This document shows positions 1,142 through 6,288 of a stretch of DNA of 6,288 nt, piece by piece. Below the pieces are notes generated by a model. It did not search any database, had not been told where the DNA came from, and worked only from the letters and a program-made list of their open reading frames with translations. How positions within the stretch are numbered: position 1 is the first letter of the stretch; each line of letters opens with the position of its first letter. The DNA is taken from the NCBI GenBank assembly GCA_026706505.1, contig JAPOYQ010000091.1:1-6288 (forward strand), written 5' to 3'. The stretch is from Gemmatimonadota bacterium (GTDB taxonomy: Bacteria > Latescibacterota > UBA2968 > UBA8231). The position numbers and the translations under genes were made by a program.

Positions 1142-1170
1142 TTTACTGAAATCGAAATCTGACGTATTAT
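1142..1170 (+). promoter_or_regulatory. Sigma-70-type promoter in front of leader copy 1
   Basis: TTTACT (1142-1147) and TATTAT (1165-1170) are spaced by 17 bp and match the -35/-10 consensus at 4 of 6 and 5 of 6 positions. Transcription would begin at about 1176-1178, exactly where the sequence shared with leader copy 2 starts (AGTGCCACT at 1175). This agreement supports both calls. The transcript would cover a leader RNA with no gene behind it. Confidence 0.5.
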
Positions 1171-1174
1171 TACC

Positions 1175-1366
1175 AGTGCCACTCAGTCTGTGCAGAGCCC
1201 ATGCAGGTCGGGTTATCTGCTAAATAAAATAGCCCGTAAAACGGTGCGGGGTCGCTCCCCGCACCAAGGGCGAATAGGCAGACTTGTCTCGCTTCTTTGC
1301 GCAGACTAGTGGCATGGCCCGGCACCCATTGGAGAGCTGGGCATCTTCCTAGTGCCACAAGGAGAT
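1175..1366 (+). promoter_or_regulatory. Structured leader RNA, copy 1 (orphan, no downstream gene)
   Basis: This is the first of three related riboswitch-like leaders. In order it holds: AGTGCCACT (1175-1183); a GCCC/GGGC closing pair (1232-1235 with 1268-1271); a perfect 9-bp hairpin (1243-1251 with 1257-1265) with loop TCGCT; the box GGGCGAAT (1268-1275); GACTTGTCTCGC (1281-1292); GTGGCA (1309-1314); a hairpin GCCCGGC/GCTGGGC (1317-1323 with 1336-1342); an anti-Shine-Dalgarno strand CATCTTCCT (1342-1350); TGCCAC (1353-1358), able to pair with GTGGCA; and AAGGAG (1359-1364). The 5' arm 1177-1193 can instead pair with 1299-1314 over 16 bp with one bulge. Compared with copy 2 it carries about 33 extra nt near 1200-1232 and about 9 extra nt at 1299-1307. 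No gene follows: after AAGGAG a short frame closes within a few codons and a mobile-end-like repeat begins. Confidence 0.6.
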
Positions 1367-1368
1367 GG

Positions 1369-1441
1369 GTATCCGTTTGAAATTTCCAGTCCTCTGATAA
1401 AGGGAAGAAACCCCCGAAAAAATTCAAACAGGTACACTACC
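1369..1441. mobile_element. Short remnant bounded by inverted TTCAAAC-type ends
   Basis: GTTTGAAATTT (1375-1385) and AAAAATTCAAAC (1418-1429) are near-perfect inverted copies. The right side continues as TTCAAACAGGTACACTACC (1423-1441), which matches the 3' end of the two 38-bp repeats at 2761-2798 and 4264-4301 (TTCAAAC-N6-ACTACC in all three). Read inward from the minus strand this is GGTAGT-N6-GTTTGAA, a form typical of insertion-sequence terminal inverted repeats. A minus-strand gene is cut exactly at 1441/1442, which is what an insertion or an adjacent deletion would do. No transposase gene is present, so this is at best an internally deleted or solo element. The mobile-element identity is inferred. 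Confidence 0.42.
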
Positions 1442-1527
1442 TTGATGCGAAGGCTGGCCTCGCTCAGCCTGGACAGACGGTCTCGGAGGATCTCTACCTG
1501 TGGGTTGCGTGGGTCGGCTTTCGTCAA
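1442..1527 (-). pseudogene. 5' remnant of a GAF-type sensor/regulator gene, truncated after 28 codons
   Basis: A strong ribosome binding site AGGAGG (complement of 1535-1540) lies 7 nt before a TTG start (complement of 1525-1527). The frame then reads LTKADPRNPQVEI followed by LRDRLSRLSEASLRI, ending at 1444. 'RLSRLSEASLRI' is, from memory, the characteristic lead-in to GAF domains in sensor kinases and response regulators of Chloroflexota and relatives, usually followed by NESLD. Here the match stops and the repeat GGTAGTGTACC (complement of 1431-1441) begins. The frame stays open on the minus strand to 1306, but only through the repeat and the reverse complement of leader copy 1. A matching promoter lies upstream (1631-1659). 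The gene was therefore probably functional before being cut. The start at TTG is chosen over an ATG at 1603-1605 because only TTG has a ribosome binding site. Confidence 0.5.
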
Positions 1528-1630
1528 CGTCTCACCTCCTATGGACTGCGTTCGACCTTCGGTCCAGGGTCGTCGGGCTCGACTGGACGGGGCCACGAGA
1601 TGCAAGGCGCAGTAGGCCCAGCCGGGGCTA

Positions 1631-1659
1631 ATTATACCTTTTCGGGCAAAATATCACAA
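1631..1659 (-). promoter_or_regulatory. Strong sigma-70-type promoter for the truncated minus-strand gene
   Basis: On the minus strand TTGTGA (complement of 1654-1659) and a perfect TATAAT (complement of 1631-1636) are separated by exactly 17 bp. Transcription would start near 1624 and give a leader of about 97 nt before the TTG start at 1527. That leader can fold a small hairpin (TGGAC with GTCCA) just before the AGGAGG. The -35 region overlaps one of the AATATCAC boxes, suggesting that binding there controls this promoter. Confidence 0.6.
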
Positions 1660-1690
1660 TAATATCACAGGAAAAAGCCTTGAATATCAC
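1650..1690. repeat. Three phased AATATCAC boxes, probable operator
   Basis: The octamer AATATCAC occurs exactly three times, at 1650-1657, 1661-1668 and 1683-1690. Starts are 11 and 22 bp apart, close to one and two helical turns, so all three lie on the same DNA face. Read on the minus strand they are GTGATATT. One box overlaps the minus-strand -35 element and another overlaps a candidate plus-strand -35 (1680-1685). Same-face spacing of exact direct repeats between divergent promoters is typical of a response-regulator or activator site. The bound protein cannot be named. Confidence 0.5.
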
Positions 1691-1722
1691 GTCTATGTCA
1701 TTCTATACCCTTAAATTAAAAT
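1680..1722 (+). promoter_or_regulatory. Promoter region for leader copy 2 and the PPC lipoprotein
   Basis: Two readings are possible. TTGAAT (1680-1685) with TATACC (1704-1709) has an 18-bp spacer. Alternatively the -10 is TAAAAT (1717-1722), which lies 3 bp before the AGTGCCACT of leader copy 2, much as TATTAT lies 4 bp before it in copy 1, but it lacks a good -35. An activator bound to the phased AATATCAC boxes immediately upstream could compensate for a weak -35. Either reading starts the transcript at or near the leader's first conserved bases. Confidence 0.35.
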
Positions 1723-1725
1723 ACA

Positions 1726-1879
1726 AGTGCCACTAAGTCTTTTGCAGAGGCCGTAAGACGGTGCGGGGTCGCTCCCCGCACCGCGGGCGAATGAGGCAGA
1801 CTTGTCTCGCTTCTTTAGTGGCATGGCCTGGCACCTATTGGAGGGTCAGGCATCCATCTTCTAAGTGCCACAAGGAGAT
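1726..1879 (+). promoter_or_regulatory. Structured leader RNA, copy 2 (riboswitch-like), in front of the PPC lipoprotein
   Basis: Parts in order: AGTGCCACTAA (1726-1736); a perfect 9-bp hairpin (1760-1768 with 1774-1782), loop TCGCT; GGGCGAAT (1785-1792); GACTTGTCTCGC (1799-1810); GTGGCA (1818-1823); hairpin GCCTGGC/GTCAGGC (1826-1832 with 1845-1851); anti-Shine-Dalgarno ATCTTCT (1856-1862); TGCCAC (1866-1871); AAGGAG (1872-1877), 7 nt before the ATG at 1885. GTGGCA can pair with TGCCAC beside the Shine-Dalgarno, or with the 5' arm through TGCCACTAA (1728-1736) and TTAGTGGCA (1815-1823), 9 bp perfect. ATCTTCT can pair with AGGAGAT (1873-1879), hiding the Shine-Dalgarno and enclosing TGCCAC in the loop. 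The second hairpin keeps its pairing relative to copy 1 despite base changes on both strands. This suggests control of translation by alternative folding. The ligand or trigger is unknown. Confidence 0.65.
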
Positions 1880-1884
1880 ACGTC

Positions 1885-2691
1885 ATGGCCTGTCGATTCG
1901 CTCTTTGGGCTTTATCTGCCCTTTTCGTCCTTTCCTGCTCCTCCCCAACAGCCCAAAACCCCGAAGCGGCCCAAGAAGAGATTGCGCCGTGGGAAACGGT
2001 GTCGATCAACGGGGCGGCCTACCGGCGCGTGGCGGCCAAGCCAACGGCCACACAGCAAGACTTAACCATTACCCTATCTATTCCCGTTTCTTTGTCGGGG
2101 GGCCAATTGATTCTTTCGGATCAAGTCACCATCGCCGGCCGCGTGTACAGGGCCGACTGCTCGTCTCCTGGTCCGACCCCGACGCCGACCCCAACCCCGA
2201 CGCCGACTCCAACCCCTCCTCCATCGCCCACCGGCGACGATGTAGGCAATACGCCTGCCACGGCCACGGCCCTTACCGTGCCCTATGCGCCGGCCGGATC
2301 GACCGCGGCCGTCATTTGGCGATCGCCGACGTATCGGCTAACGGCCCAAGACGTGGATTATTTTCGTCTGAACGTGACCAGCCCGGTCTGGCTAGGCGTG
2401 GGCTCTTGGGGACAGACGGACACAAAGGCAACGCTTTTTAACGCCAGTGGCGAGGTTTTGGATCGCAATGATGATGGTTTCAATCCCGGCAACCACAACT
2501 TTTTCTTGTTCGCGCGAGTCCAGCCAGGCACGTATTACGTAAAAGTGGAGGGATACTCTGCCGCTACCCAAGGCGACTATATCGTTGGGGTCTCTACCAT
2601 CCACGACCTGGACGCGGCATCAGCCGAAGACGCGACATCAGGGGACCTCGCCGCCTTTTATGGGGAACAACTCAAAGAGGCATTTCAATAG
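1885..2691 (+). CDS. Secreted lipoprotein with Pro-Thr linker and PPC domain
   Basis: The protein has 268 residues. Residues 1-18 form a lipoprotein signal peptide (positive Arg4, hydrophobic core, VLSC with Cys18 as the lipidation site), so the mature protein should be anchored by lipid outside the cytoplasmic membrane. Residues about 35-92 form a small beta-rich segment I do not recognise. Residues 97-110 are seven Pro-Thr repeats, a flexible spacer. Residues about 118-238 resemble the bacterial pre-peptidase C-terminal (PPC) domain, a beta-sandwich: DVDYFRLNV, then ATLFNASGEVL, an Asp/Asn-rich turn (RNDDGFNPGNHN) and PGTYYVKVEGY. In other proteins PPC domains flank secreted proteases and aid secretion, stability or binding; here there is no catalytic domain. 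The ATG at 1885 is fixed by AAGGAG 7 nt upstream, which is part of leader copy 2. A terminator follows 30 bp after the stop, so the gene is a single-gene unit. Function is unknown beyond a cell-surface binding or structural role. Confidence 0.85.
   Translation: MACRFALWALSALFVLSCSSPTAQNPEAAQEEIAPWETVSINGAAYRRVAAKPTATQQDLTITLSIPVSLSGGQLILSDQVTIAGRVYRADCSSPGPTPTPTPTPTPTPTPPPSPTGDDVGNTPATATALTVPYAPAGSTAAVIWRSPTYRLTAQDVDYFRLNVTSPVWLGVGSWGQTDTKATLFNASGEVLDRNDDGFNPGNHNFFLFARVQPGTYYVKVEGYSAATQGDYIVGVSTIHDLDAASAEDATSGDLAAFYGEQLKEAFQ
2173..2214 (+). repeat. Pro-Thr repeat tract inside the lipoprotein gene
   Basis: Seven consecutive Pro-Thr dipeptides are encoded by near-repeated hexamers (CCGACC, CCGACG, CCAACC and similar), followed by a Pro-rich run. 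Codons are mixed rather than identical, so the tract is kept at protein level. Such tracts act as extended linkers in surface proteins. They can vary in length by slippage, which would change how far the PPC domain stands off the membrane. Confidence 0.8.
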
Positions 2692-2720
2692 GGATAAGCA
2701 CAAGATTCGGCGACGCACAA

Positions 2721-2755
2721 CGGCGCGGGTGGATCGAGCACCCGCGCCGCTTTTG
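2721..2755 (+). terminator. Rho-independent terminator after the PPC lipoprotein gene
   Basis: CGGCGCGGGTG (2721-2731) pairs perfectly with CACCCGCGCCG (2739-2749) around a 7-nt loop, followed by CTTTTG. It lies about 30 bp after the TAA, is very G+C-rich, and has a short T tract. It closes a single-gene transcription unit. The 38-bp repeat begins 6 bp further on. Confidence 0.85.
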
Positions 2756-2760
2756 CATGC

Positions 2761-2798
2761 CTACACTCTCCTGTGTAATTTCAAACGAACACACTACC
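2761..2798 (+). repeat. 38-bp repeat, copy A
   Basis: It matches 4264-4301 at 33 of 38 positions, the last 26 being identical and ending in TTTCAAACGAACACACTACC. The five differences fall together in a short block between a conserved CTACAC and GTGT, which could pair as a mini-stem (ACAC with GTGT). The third, diverged relative ends at 1441. Both full copies sit a few bases after a terminator and are in the same orientation, so they flank the leader, protease gene and terminator module as direct repeats. The form suggests a mobile-element end or recombination site. A weak promoter, TTGCAT (2753-2758) and TAATTT (2776-2781) with a 17-bp spacer, overlaps it. Confidence 0.7.
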
Positions 2799-2824
2799 TC
2801 CTGCTGAATACAAGAGCCATTTAA

Positions 2825-2952
2825 GCCTGTTCGAGGGTAGCTCCCTCGTTAGCGCTCAGGTGAATAAGTAGGACTTCTCGCAGCCTCTGCGTGATGGCAC
2901 AAGGCCCGGCATCCCTGCGAGAAGTCCGGGTCTCCTTTCTATCACAAGGAGG
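2825..2952 (+). promoter_or_regulatory. Structured leader RNA, copy 3 (diverged), in front of the M8-like protease
   Basis: Sequence identity to copies 1 and 2 is low, but the parts come in the same order. GCCTG pairs with CAGGT (2825-2829 with 2857-2861). The hairpin CGAGGG/CCCTCG (2832-2837 with 2843-2848) has loop TAGCT, giving the same GGGTNGCTCCC core. Then come AGGTGAAT (2858-2865); GACTTCTCGC (2872-2881); GTGAT (2891-2895); a CCCGG/CCGGG hairpin (2905-2909 with 2926-2930); anti-Shine-Dalgarno CTCCTT (2932-2937); ATCAC (2941-2945), complementary to GTGAT; and AAGGAG (2946-2951), 6 nt before the ATG at 2958. All the helices proposed for the other copies can form here with different bases. 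A further 13-bp perfect helix joins 2871-2883 to 2915-2927 and would compete with the CCCGG hairpin, or form a pseudoknot with its loop. Confidence 0.6.
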
Positions 2953-2957
2953 CTGCC

Positions 2958-4217
2958 ATGTTCCGCGCTTTGTTGTCCCTCGCCCTTTTTGCGTCCGTCC
3001 TTTCCTGCTCAAAAGACGATCCTGTTTCCGCTCCTTCGCCAGCGGCCAAATATGTCATTGACGCTTGGCTGGTGCCTTCCCCGGCCAACGTGGACTTCAA
3101 GCCGGATGGTACGTGGTATCCGTTTCAGGTTCAAAGTAACCTTCCGGATCTGGATCAATTGCGGATCGTGATAAATCCAACGGGGCTTACAGCCGACCCC
3201 GTGCTGACCATAACCCACAGGAGGTCCACTACCAACTATTGCCAATGGGAGACGATGGCAAACAATTCGCTGACCCTGCCTCAAGGAGGCCGGTTTCACT
3301 TGGCTGCTTGTCGGCCCGGCACAGCCGCCGTGGTGATTCAGACGTATTCTGGAGTGCCTCTAGACACAATGCGTTTTGAGGTGAAAGCTCCTTCCGGGAT
3401 AGGCGGAAACCAACAGACCGAATCCGACTTCAACATCGAGCTGGTCTTCTTGAGAATGCCAGGCGACCCGATTTTGTCCCTTGAGCAAAAGAAAGTCTAT
3501 CGCAATGCCGCCGATCGCTGGGAAGAGGTCATCACAGGAGATGTACAGGACATCGACTTTACCTACGACCCAACAAACGACTGGAGTCCTCTTTTGGAAG
3601 CGAGCTATTCCGTGGACGATAAAGTGGACGATCTGAGAGTGTTCATACGAGTCATGGACCTTGAAGAAGACACAGCCGGTCTGGCGTGGAGACCTTGGGT
3701 GAGAAGTGTTGGTAAATTACCCATCATCGCAGAGATGGCTGTTGCGCCGGACTACAAAGACGATTTTTCGCTCATCATGCACGAGATGGGCCATTGCCTC
3801 GGATTCGATCTATCAAGCTGGGACCAACTCGGGCTTAGAAACAAGCGGGACAATACGTTCAAAGGATCCATAACGCGAAGTATTTTTCTCGCGTTGTCAG
3901 CAGGTGCCTATCCGGGCGGTTATGTGCCCATCGACGACGGCGGCGGCGCACACTGGAAAGACTCCGTCCTCGGTGATGAACTGATGATCTACGGGTGGGT
4001 TTGGCCTTACAAAACGCCCTTATCCATCATCACCGCGGCGGCCATGCTCGATTTGGGCTACCAAGTCAACCTCCAAGCGGCCGATCCCTATACCTTCCAG
4101 CAAAAAGCCGCAGCCAAGCCACATCCCCCAAAACCCCAGCCCCGATGTCATATCGTGCGCCGCCCCATCAAAGTAGCCGATGAAAAAGGACGCTGGATCG
4201 ACACCATTCAGCCTTAA
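2958..4217 (+). CDS. Secreted leishmanolysin-like (M8/metzincin-type) zinc metalloprotease lipoprotein
   Basis: The protein has 419 residues. Residues 1-17 are a lipoprotein signal peptide ending VLSC (Cys17), the same lipobox as the neighbouring lipoprotein, so it should be lipid-anchored outside the cytoplasmic membrane. Residues about 30-145 look like a beta-rich domain without a clear match. The peptidase region follows: YRNAADRWEEVI near 181-192, then HEMGHCLGFD at 275-284, giving the zinc ligands His275 and His279 and the catalytic Glu276. About 53 residues later comes HWKDSVLGDELMIYG (332-346), with His332 as the likely third zinc ligand and the ELM segment as a probable Met-turn, followed by ITAAAMLDLGYQVN. 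This HW...ELM...DLGY pattern is characteristic of leishmanolysin-related peptidases. The last 45 residues are Lys- and Pro-rich. The start is fixed by AAGGAGG in leader copy 3. A strong terminator ends the single-gene unit. Substrate unknown. Confidence 0.83.
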   Translation: MFRALLSLALFASVLSCSKDDPVSAPSPAAKYVIDAWLVPSPANVDFKPDGTWYPFQVQSNLPDLDQLRIVINPTGLTADPVLTITHRRSTTNYCQWETMANNSLTLPQGGRFHLAACRPGTAAVVIQTYSGVPLDTMRFEVKAPSGIGGNQQTESDFNIELVFLRMPGDPILSLEQKKVYRNAADRWEEVITGDVQDIDFTYDPTNDWSPLLEASYSVDDKVDDLRVFIRVMDLEEDTAGLAWRPWVRSVGKLPIIAEMAVAPDYKDDFSLIMHEMGHCLGFDLSSWDQLGLRNKRDNTFKGSITRSIFLALSAGAYPGGYVPIDDGGGAHWKDSVLGDELMIYGWVWPYKTPLSIITAAAMLDLGYQVNLQAADPYTFQQKAAAKPHPPKPQPRCHIVRRPIKVADEKGRWIDTIQP

Positions 4218-4698: not shown

Positions 4699-5310
4699 AT
4701 GAGTGAATCTAAGGTAATTCCACTCCCAGACGACGAGGATGAGGCGGCGCATGAGGGTCTTTCCCTTGACAAACTCTCTGATGCGCAACTGGCGGCTCTT
4801 TCCAATGAAACAATACAGCGCCTCGAACTGGACCAGCGCAAGCAGCTCGCCTGCCGCTACTTAGTAGCCAACGAACAACGGGCGCGCAATGATCCCGAAT
4901 ACACAACCCTTGGATGGATTGCGGACCGGGTAGGCGTTGATGTTCGGGTGCTCTACCGTTGGCGCACGGAGGATTCTTCTTGGAATGCTCTGATGGAAGC
5001 CGAGCGCGAGCGTGCGGAATCGTACATTGGCGATCTGCCGCTGTCGAGCCGGAGAGGTCGTGCGAAGGCTCTACAAGAGATGTTTGATGATCCTAAAACA
5101 CCAGGGAGCGTGCGCCTCAAGATTTCCGAAAAGTTCGAGCGGTTTGAGGGAGACGGTGCCGCCGCCGTGAAGAAAGAAGCTGAAGGTGCCCGCGAACGAA
5201 TGCGTGAGAAGATATTGCAGGTAACCTCTAGGCTGTCGTCAGGCCCTCCCAGATCCCCAACCCGGCGGCATCCGTCGCCCAGCGAGCCCACAACCGATGA
5301 GCCAAGCTAA
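4699..5310 (+). CDS. terS: Phage terminase small subunit (putative, helix-turn-helix protein)
   Basis: The protein has 203 residues and lies directly before, and overlaps, a large terminase gene, the usual position of the small subunit that recognises phage DNA for packaging. Residues 1-45 are acidic. Residues about 68-95 contain a helix-turn-helix of the form TLGWIADRVGVDVRVLYRW, like the DNA-binding part of many small terminases (IAxxVGVxxRTLYRW). Residues 98-178 are charged and helical (MEAERERAES, KISEKFERFEG, EGARERMREKI), suited to oligomerisation into a ring. The tail from 181 is Pro/Ser/Thr-rich and disordered. The ATG at 4699 is chosen because GAAAGGGG ends 6 nt before it. The last 14 bases overlap the next gene in another frame. 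Family assignment rests on context plus the helix-turn-helix; I see no close named homologue. Confidence 0.72.
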   Translation: MSESKVIPLPDDEDEAAHEGLSLDKLSDAQLAALSNETIQRLELDQRKQLACRYLVANEQRARNDPEYTTLGWIADRVGVDVRVLYRWRTEDSSWNALMEAERERAESYIGDLPLSSRRGRAKALQEMFDDPKTPGSVRLKISEKFERFEGDGAAAVKKEAEGARERMREKILQVTSRLSSGPPRSPTRRHPSPSEPTTDEPS

Positions 5311-6288
5311 TCTTTCCCAGATTGTGCTGCTTGCCTACGCCTTCCGGCAGCAGGCACAGGACACCGGCCGTCCTATTGAGCAGCTCGTGGACGAGTGGCT
5401 CAACGAGGTGACCCCCGTGGAGGCCTTGGCTTTCCTGTATGATTGGGAGTCTTGGGCCAGACCCGACCAATTGCCGCCGCCGGGTGATTGGTCGGTGTGG
5501 TTGATTATGGGTGGTCGCGGTAGTGGGAAGACGCGACCGGGTGCCGAGTGGATTCTCCAAAAAGAACGGGAAGGGTACCGGCGGATGGCCCTTGTTGCGG
5601 AGACGGAAAATGATGGTCGCAAAATCATGGTCGAGGGCGAGTCTGGCCTCTTAGCGTGTGCCCCACCCGACAACCGCCCCGAGTATCATCCCGAAAACCG
5701 CGAGCTAATCTGGAAATCGGGCGCACGGGCTGATCTTTACTCTGGTGATAGCCCCGGCCAATTGCGTGGTCCGCAGCACGATGCCGCTTGGTGCGATGAG
5801 GTTGCCAAGTGGAAATATCCCGAGGAGGCCCTTGCTAATTTGGAGTTCGCGCTACGACTGGAAGAGAACCCTCAGTACGTCATAACGACCACACCGCGGC
5901 CGGTGGCCGCTTTGATTAAGCTGATGAATGATCCCAGCTGCGTCACCGTCCAGGCGGACACGTATGCGAATGCGGCCCATCTACCAGCCAAGTTCATCCA
6001 GCGAATAGAGCAACGCTACGCCGGCACGGAGCGTGGACGCCAAGAGATTGATGGCGAATTACTGGAGGACATAAAAGGGGTCCTGTGGAAATTGTCGGCT
6101 ATCAACGAAACGCGGATTCACAAGCCGGCGGAACAACCCACCTACTCTCGCAAAGTCATTGGCGTCGATCCGCAAGGCAACGAAGCATCAGGCATCTGGC
6201 TGCCCAATGAAGACGAGGGCAGCGAAACGGGCATCGTCGTCTGTGGGGAAGGCAGCGACGGGCGCGGCTATGTGCTCGACGACCGGTC
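5297..6288 (+). CDS. terL: Phage/GTA-type terminase large subunit, N-terminal 330 residues (runs off right edge)
   Basis: This is the packaging ATPase and nuclease that drives DNA into the phage head. Seen in sequence: an adenine-binding-type lead-in, RPDQLPPPGDW (55-65); Walker A GGRGSGKT (72-79) followed by GAEW; MVEGESGLL (111-119); YSGDSPGQLRGPQHDAAWCDE (148-168), containing the Walker B acid pair Asp167-Glu168; the coupling motif TTTPRP (197-202); GRQEIDGELLED (247-258); and the start of the nuclease domain VIGVDPQG (287-294), with Asp291 a likely metal ligand. This order and wording match the HK97/gene-transfer-agent type of large terminase (the Terminase_6 group). Two oddities are Pro81 where the family usually has Ala (GKTRAGAEW), and about 7 extra residues between the nuclease Asp and TGIVV. 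The ATG at 5297 lies inside the 3' end of the small-subunit gene with no strong ribosome binding site, implying translational coupling. The rest of the nuclease domain is outside the window. Confidence 0.93.
   Translation, partial: MSQANLSQIVLLAYAFRQQAQDTGRPIEQLVDEWLNEVTPVEALAFLYDWESWARPDQLPPPGDWSVWLIMGGRGSGKTRPGAEWILQKEREGYRRMALVAETENDGRKIMVEGESGLLACAPPDNRPEYHPENRELIWKSGARADLYSGDSPGQLRGPQHDAAWCDEVAKWKYPEEALANLEFALRLEENPQYVITTTPRPVAALIKLMNDPSCVTVQADTYANAAHLPAKFIQRIEQRYAGTERGRQEIDGELLEDIKGVLWKLSAINETRIHKPAEQPTYSRKVIGVDPQGNEASGIWLPNEDEGSETGIVVCGEGSDGRGYVLDDR

Follow-up and report, generated by a model that had tools for sequence, protein, structure and literature searches.

The 6,288-nucleotide stretch analysed here (hereafter the window; contig JAPOYQ010000091.1 of assembly GCA_026706505.1, forward strand) originates from a Gemmatimonadota bacterium and carries three homologous segments on its plus strand, denoted c1 (1176-1366), c2 (1727-1879) and c3 (2814-2953), which would represent one structured 5'-untranslated RNA copied three times. 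A comparison of their sequences supports, within this window, a conserved family of structured leader RNAs whose stems covary; a role as translational control element is plausible. The reading that we favour, with a probability of about 0.5, is that of a new family of cis-acting leader RNAs that hides the Shine-Dalgarno (SD) sequence of phage-linked surface-lipoprotein genes.

Architecture and covariation of the leader copies

The proposed architecture comprises a closed domain, in which the outer helix P1 encloses P2 and the apical stem P3, followed by a spacer hairpin (HP) and by the SD sequence AAGGAG, which would be the 3' arm of a further, possible hairpin. In c1, P1 joins 1176-1183 to 1308-1315 and is extended by the pairing of 1185-1197 with 1295-1307, P2 (1232-1235 with 1268-1271) encloses P3 (1243-1251 with 1257-1265, loop TCGCT), HP is formed by 1317-1323 and 1336-1342, and a 34-nucleotide (nt) insert at 1198-1231 is missing from c2 and c3. 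The c2 copy has P1 at 1727-1737 with 1814-1824, a G.G mismatch adjoining its closing GCC/GGC helix, P2 at 1750-1752 with 1786-1788 and P3 at 1759-1768 with 1774-1783, both enclosed by P1, and HP at 1826-1832 with 1845-1851. The corresponding helices of c3 are P1 at 2814-2821 with 2893-2900 (one A.A mismatch), P2 at 2825-2828 with 2858-2861, P3 at 2832-2837 with 2843-2848 and HP at 2903-2909 with 2926-2932. The preliminary description of this DNA had located c1 and c2 correctly and had c3 start at 2825, which is 11 nt late and misses the outer-helix strand 2814-2821; the ordered parts it had named were recognized by inspection of the sequence in all three copies.

The apical stem reads GGTGCGGGG-TCGCT-CCCCGCACC in c1, is one pair longer in c2 and reads CGAGGG-TAGCT-CCCTCG in c3, with the loop T-N-GCT kept in all three. 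The first box is GGGCGAAT in c1 and c2 and AGGTGAAT in c3, the second GACTTGTC in c1 and c2 and GACTTCTC in c3, and the GGYGAAT and GACTTNTC boxes are kept between c1/c2 and c3. The arms of the spacer hairpin are GCCCGGC/GCTGGGC (c1), GCCTGGC/GTCAGGC (c2) and GGCCCGG/CCGGGTC (c3). Only c3 has, in addition, a perfect helix of 13 base pairs (bp) between 2871-2883, which holds the GACTTNTC box, and 2915-2927 in the loop of the spacer hairpin; this helix is probably not due to chance, because a perfect helix of at least 10 bp arose in just 105 of 20000 shuffles of c3. Indels of 1 and 4 nt between c1 and c2 rule out a conserved leader peptide; two further indels between these segments measure 9 and 34 nt.

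The claim that pairing is kept while the bases change was borne out by an alignment of the five helices (P1, P2, P3, HP and the SD hairpin), in which 97 of the 102 cells are paired and seven pairs have changed on both sides, at least one of them in each helix; structure and padded alignment were drawn by hand, partly from the same three sequences, which favours the helices. Controls with slid partners gave 0-1 of such double changes, and none of 500 shuffles of the 3' letters matched the percentage paired, the count of double changes or the covariation score. The pair types numbered 14 against a shuffle mean of 12.7, and 58 of the 500 shuffles equalled the observed number. In this alignment c3 contributes only three of the seven HP pairs, since HP and the SD hairpin overlap in this copy. 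Between c1 and c2, HP has acquired four substitutions that all preserve pairing on the plus strand, partly through G.U, and one of its pairs is preserved by a double change. The plus strand is also favoured by the ratio of G.U to A.C among the 102 cells (9 versus 2), G.U being allowed when the helices were chosen. Folding z-scores were -5.56 (c1), -4.00 (c2) and -3.91 (c3); those of the reverse strand were near to them for c2 (-3.13) and c3 (-3.48), and the energy-based strand preference is therefore slight.

We constructed covariance models from all three copies (R1) and from c1 and c2 only (R2), as well as a sequence-only model (R3). R2 detected c3 over 2814-2953, from the first to the last model position (15.0 bits, E = 0.0063, model E-values being rough), with the SD hairpin paired in the resulting alignment, and c3 was absent from the R3 matches at E <= 10. 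R2 also matched the P3 hairpins, which are self-complementary, on the reverse strand (E = 0.0094 and 0.035). The c1 copy was matched by R1 and R2 only from 1214/1215, because of its 34-nt insert.

Searches for known families and further copies are in line with the earlier statement that the leaders match no known class. No family of Rfam 15 (4227 families) reached its gathering cut-off for the leaders: at E <= 1 the window gave a single match, outside the leaders (RF02113, 20.7 bits versus 70), and at E <= 10 the region 1165-2970 gave four, of 16.3-18.7 bits versus cut-offs of 57-80. No published description of the leader was found among the open-licence literature. Some pattern scans of viral contigs returned zero loci and others three (L092, L093 and L094), which were rejected as they gave no match with R1 at E <= 5 or with R2 at E <= 1. 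The scan of genome contigs returned one locus, L014, in a metagenome-assembled genome (MAG) of Desulfomonile; it was judged a chance match, since it lies inside the span of a 305-residue open reading frame (ORF) on the reverse strand and its R1 match comprises just 11 positions of P3. When 99 genomes of one phylum were searched with R1, under stricter filters and with no more than 31 candidates being scored in each genome, one matched (18.5 bits, E = 0.032 for the genome; E = 0.00038 in a smaller search). In our judgement this is a chance match as well, given that the model's own copies score 98-137 bits and that the match overlaps two long reverse-strand ORFs. With R2 as control, no match at E <= 1 was obtained in 92 of 95 loci (L006, L038 and L095 were left out). 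The phage and plasmid DNA matches listed (6/6 and 20/71 records) cover only query positions ~995-1079, a repeat-rich stretch of lipoprotein 1 (see below), and leave the leaders uncovered. None of these scans yielded a confirmed copy outside the window.

The SD hairpin and the competing helix

Two features go beyond the preliminary description: the signal-peptide pattern treated in the next section, and the possible SD hairpin. In every copy the nine bases from AAGGAG onward are complementary to nine upstream bases, in the same register and across an 8-nt loop. The arms are 1342-1350 and 1359-1367 in c1 (loop 1351-1358; eight of nine columns pair), 1855-1863 and 1872-1880 in c2 (loop 1864-1871; seven of nine) and 2929-2937 and 2946-2954 in c3 (loop 2938-2945; nine of nine), where those of c1 and c2 are imperfect and contain G.U and mismatches. 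Base shuffles equalled this pairing, with any loop of 4-12 nt, in 167 (c1), 1197 (c2) and 15 (c3) of 20000 cases, a result that is striking for c3, good for c1 and weak for c2 alone.

The loop of the SD hairpin has a second possible partner, the 3' strand of P1 or the bases next to it. This competing helix has 7 bp in each copy (1309-1315 with 1352-1358 in c1, 1818-1824 with 1865-1871 in c2 and 2891-2897 with 2939-2945 in c3), and its arms, GTGGCAT/GTGCCAC in c1 and c2 and GTGATGG/CTATCAC in c3, end directly 5' of AAGGAG. The stem touching the AAGGAG that had been described earlier was thus found in all three copies, in c3 with a shift of 3 nt relative to the outer helix. The competing helix excludes P1, so that a mutually exclusive pair of helices is present in 3/3; from its geometry it should also exclude the full SD hairpin, because there is no linker between the loop strand and the SD. 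P1 and the competing helix occurred together in 47 (c1), 32 (c2) and 21 (c3) of 3000 dinucleotide shuffles.

In the folding predictions, the unconstrained structure of c1 contains P1 (-94.6 kcal/mol, versus -87.7 with the competing helix forced and -90.2 with P1 plus the SD hairpin). The states of c2 are nearly balanced, at -73.1 kcal/mol unconstrained, -72.1 with P1 forced, -71.3 with the competing helix and -72.0 with P1 plus the SD hairpin. For c3 we obtained -68.1 kcal/mol with the competing helix, -50.6 with P1 forced and -66.9 for an alternative that combines the 13-bp helix with the SD hairpin. The SD is mostly paired in each computed ensemble (mean unpaired 0.24, 0.01 and 0.33 for c1, c2 and c3 at 37 C); with 66 coding bases included, the SD of c2 has its partners at 1806-1812, alongside the competing helix. 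Going by these models, the trait shared by the copies is an SD hidden via differing partners.

On this basis we propose that the RNA, which probably begins near the transcription start and stops at the SD, would hold the SD paired by default and so keep translation low, and that a trans-acting signal (a metabolite, protein or tRNA) may shift the balance. With P1 formed the SD hairpin would be favoured; with P1 lost, the released 3' strand of P1 could pair with the hairpin loop and the hairpin would tend to break. The earlier suggestion of a riboswitch-like element is borne out in layout only (an outer helix, a strand shared with a competing helix and a possible SD hairpin), and the predicted energetics disagree between the copies.

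Downstream genes, signal peptides and genomic surroundings

The structured element lies directly 5' of a gene in two of the three copies, and the two genes encode different lipoproteins, as had been described. The c2 leader ends at the SD of ATG 1885, the start of the gene for lipoprotein 1 (268 residues, 1885-2691, plus strand), which has the signal peptide MACRFALWALSALFVLSC, encoded at 1885-1941, and a PPC-like domain that scores below its cut-off (24.3 versus 25.9 bits, E = 5.8e-05). The c3 leader ends at the SD of ATG 2958, the start of the gene for lipoprotein 2 (419 residues, 2958-4217, plus strand), with the signal peptide MFRALLSLALFASVLSC, an HEMGH motif and a weak leishmanolysin match below cut-off (16.3 versus 21 bits, E = 0.004). 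The spacing between AAGGAG and ATG is 7 nt for c2 and 6 nt for c3. The c1 leader ends in AAGGAG and precedes no gene; it is overlapped by mechanically called ORFs, e.g. one of 87 residues at 1352-1615 (no family search made). Within the two lipoprotein genes, 1926-1940 and 2996-3010 are 15 identical bases that encode the lipobox, third codon positions included.

Public assemblies contain relatives of the lipoproteins. We took 46 proteins (lipoprotein 1, P0141-P0175 and P0001-P0010) and compared the 42 with an LSCS or LACS box, dropping P0007, P0010, P0172 and P0175, the last two of which have LSCA; the queries that supplied the search words included a signal peptide and only ~8000 candidates were scored, so that the set is biased toward a shared signal peptide. 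Relative to lipoprotein 1, 20 of the 41 relatives have a signal peptide that is 89-100% identical and a mature part that is 46-60% identical. The signal peptide of lipoprotein 1 recurs in P0008, which belongs to the other lipoprotein type and has an unrelated mature part (25%). The reverse holds for P0141 and P0142, whose mature parts are 87% and 82% identical to lipoprotein 1 and whose signal peptides are 50% identical. Out of 861 pairs, 67 combine a signal peptide of at least 90% with a mature part of at most 60% identity, and 18 combine a mature part of at least 80% with a signal peptide of at most 60%. As a rule, mature parts are slower to diverge than signal peptides, yet here the signal peptides are near-constant, so that the pattern among these sequences suggests that the 5' end is either exchanged or constrained. 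Shared upstream DNA was seen between c1, c2 and c3 only.

Promoter-like sites were identified with a consensus scan before c1 (TTTACT-17-TATTAT, 1142-1170, plus strand) and before c2 (ATGTCA-16-TAAAAT, 1695-1722, plus strand), with P1 starting 6 and 5 bases, respectively, past the end of the site. The same scan of the window listed no site for c3, and the total of seven sites compares with 3.6 +/- 1.9 in shuffles, a weak excess. A leader start near the transcription start is suggestive from these positions. Promoter, leader and the start of the signal-peptide coding region may form a unit onto which different mature lipoproteins can be fitted. We offer only as a tentative and rather doubtful extension a plug-in 5' cassette in uncultured Gemmatimonadota-like bacteria, in which a promoter, an SD-hiding switch RNA (which might be a new class of riboswitch) and a signal peptide would pass together from one surface-lipoprotein gene to another, unrelated one at a locus with phage packaging genes. 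The biased search behind the signal-peptide comparison and the rarity of the SD hairpin in the predicted ensembles led us to lower its probability.

The genes that carry the leader would encode surface lipoproteins beside phage packaging genes: those for the small and large terminase subunits lie downstream, at 4699-6286. Among relatives of the lipoproteins only P0002 and P0142 are named, both from Gemmatimonadota MAGs, as is a named terminase relative (P0033); more distant named terminase relatives are from Thermaerobacter, Rhizomicrobium and Bacillota. Indirect evidence suggests that lipoprotein and terminase genes also occur together elsewhere (P0006/P0032/P0167, P0002/P0033 and P0039/P0160), and both lipoprotein types in three further cases. 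Aligned to viral contigs, lipoprotein 2 gave no relative, and the best segment of the terminase relatives among the matches listed was at most 51% identical. Of 80 terminase-matching viral contigs among the matches listed, 23 measure 14.0-16.0 kb, a size that, we presume, recalls gene transfer agents.

Several repeats were observed in the same region. A box (T/A)TTCAAAC with ACTACC-like bases after it is found at 1422, 2779, 4282 and 610 on the plus strand and at 1382 on the minus strand, and two of these boxes lie 3' of the inverted repeats that come after the lipoprotein genes and resemble terminators. The stretch ~1366-1441, directly 3' of c1, resembles a short element with inverted ends, and the boxes are possibly the ends of a small mobile element. 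On the minus strand, ~1441-1530 gives the impression, no search being made, of a truncated protein start after an SD-like AGGAGG.

Weighing of the readings and relation to known systems

A number of results weigh against the proposed SD-hiding leader. The three copies all come from one window and amount to about two independent sequences, as c1 and c2 are close copies; no homologous DNA was found elsewhere in exact-pattern scans of viral and genome contigs, the patterns being derived from the three copies only and the contigs possibly not including this taxon. The R2 alignment misplaces the 3' strand of P1 in c3 and puts most of P3 out of register, and its match therefore speaks more for c3 being related than for the individual helices. 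The c1 copy has an SD and no ORF at the usual distance, with ATG 1365 opening 10 codons only. The competing helix of c3 arises alone in 142 of 3000 dinucleotide shuffles (232 for c1, 163 for c2), and in relation to P1 its 5' strand is displaced upstream by 3 nt, which means that this helix is not positionally homologous. The SD hairpin and HP share four bases in c3 (2929-2932) and one in c1 (1342) and therefore cannot both form fully in these copies, which makes the combination of P1, HP and SD hairpin impossible at full length. The copies also differ in their predicted default: c1 and c2 favour P1, and c3 favours the competing helix over P1 by 17.5 kcal/mol. When some coding sequence is included and no constraint is set, the core of the SD hairpin is rare in the ensembles at 37 C (probability 0.15 in c1, 0.00 in c2 with 31 coding bases included, and 0.02 in c3), the SD of c2 pairs mostly with coding bases 1901-1906 and that of c3 with 2885-2888, and no ON state is predicted in the ensembles of c1, c2 and c3. 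Our confidence was lowered because the SD hairpin is rarely populated and excludes the full HP in c3.

Other readings account for part of the same data. The leader may be bound by a protein, either a host regulator or a phage product, that co-controls the lipoprotein genes without a small ligand; the two different lipoprotein genes carrying the element and the P3 loop kept in 3/3 copies fit such a role, which we consider unlikely on the whole. Somewhat more doubtful is a metabolite riboswitch of a new class, in which P1-P2-P3 with the GGYGAAT and GACTTNTC boxes would be the aptamer and the choice between P1 and the competing helix would be the expression platform acting on the SD. The layout is found in every copy and the boxes are kept between c1/c2 and c3, but candidate copies are known from this window alone, both genes encode surface lipoproteins and do not belong to a metabolic pathway, the default states differ among the copies, and GACTTNTC is wholly base-paired in one alternative of c3, the 13-bp helix. 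It is improbable that the leaders are primarily repeat or recombination sequences that swap lipoprotein 5' ends, with the RNA structure incidental. The signal-peptide pattern of the relatives, the gene-less c1 copy and the repeated boxes nearby would agree with such a DNA-level role, but the double changes that preserve pairing in every helix, the excess of G.U over A.C and the pairing-preserving HP substitutions between c1 and c2 speak against it. Least of all do we expect an RNA thermometer in which the SD pairing melts on warming: the SD hairpin of c1 and c2 is suitably imperfect, but the predicted opening of the SD from 20 to 60 C barely changes in c2 (0.01 to 0.05) and c3 (0.33 to 0.29) and is modest in c1 (0.18 to 0.39), and the upstream domain would be left unexplained.

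In case the favoured reading of an SD-hiding leader is correct, a leader-RNA family missing from Rfam 15 would be linked to surface lipoproteins and not to metabolism, and if the cassette exists as well, different exported proteins would come under a single post-transcriptional control. Translational riboswitches have an expression platform that sequesters the SD, and the leaders resemble them in that a competing helix can use the 3' strand of the outer helix and a possible SD hairpin lies downstream; they differ in the lack of an Rfam match, the differing default states and the surface-lipoprotein targets. RNA thermometers of the ROSE type have several hairpins before the gene, the last of which can hold the SD. 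The same arrangement is seen here, but the Rfam scans gave no ROSE match and the predicted opening with temperature is small. The ydaO/yuaA c-di-AMP riboswitch (RF00379) has a GGGTGAAT-like box in common with the leaders, but this family is absent from the matches of the leader region even at E <= 10.

Among known systems the closest is the erp family of Borrelia, where one promoter, leader and localization sequence on cp32 prophages is placed on many diverse external parts and is controlled by DNA-interacting proteins (PMC10016077; the erp genes, ospE/ospF/elp, are also covered by PMC12018966). Both systems have a near-constant signal peptide on diverged mature surface lipoproteins, and the prophage location of erp has its counterpart in the phage packaging genes that neighbour the lipoproteins here. 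The erp genes belong to a different phylum and are described there as controlled by the proteins BpaB, BpuR and EbfC, not by a leader RNA, whereas the shared 5' part in the window includes a covarying RNA (in c1, c2 and c3 only). If the favoured reading holds, the exchangeable 5' ends of the Borrelia erp genes, which proteins control, would have a counterpart based on RNA in a poorly known bacterial group.

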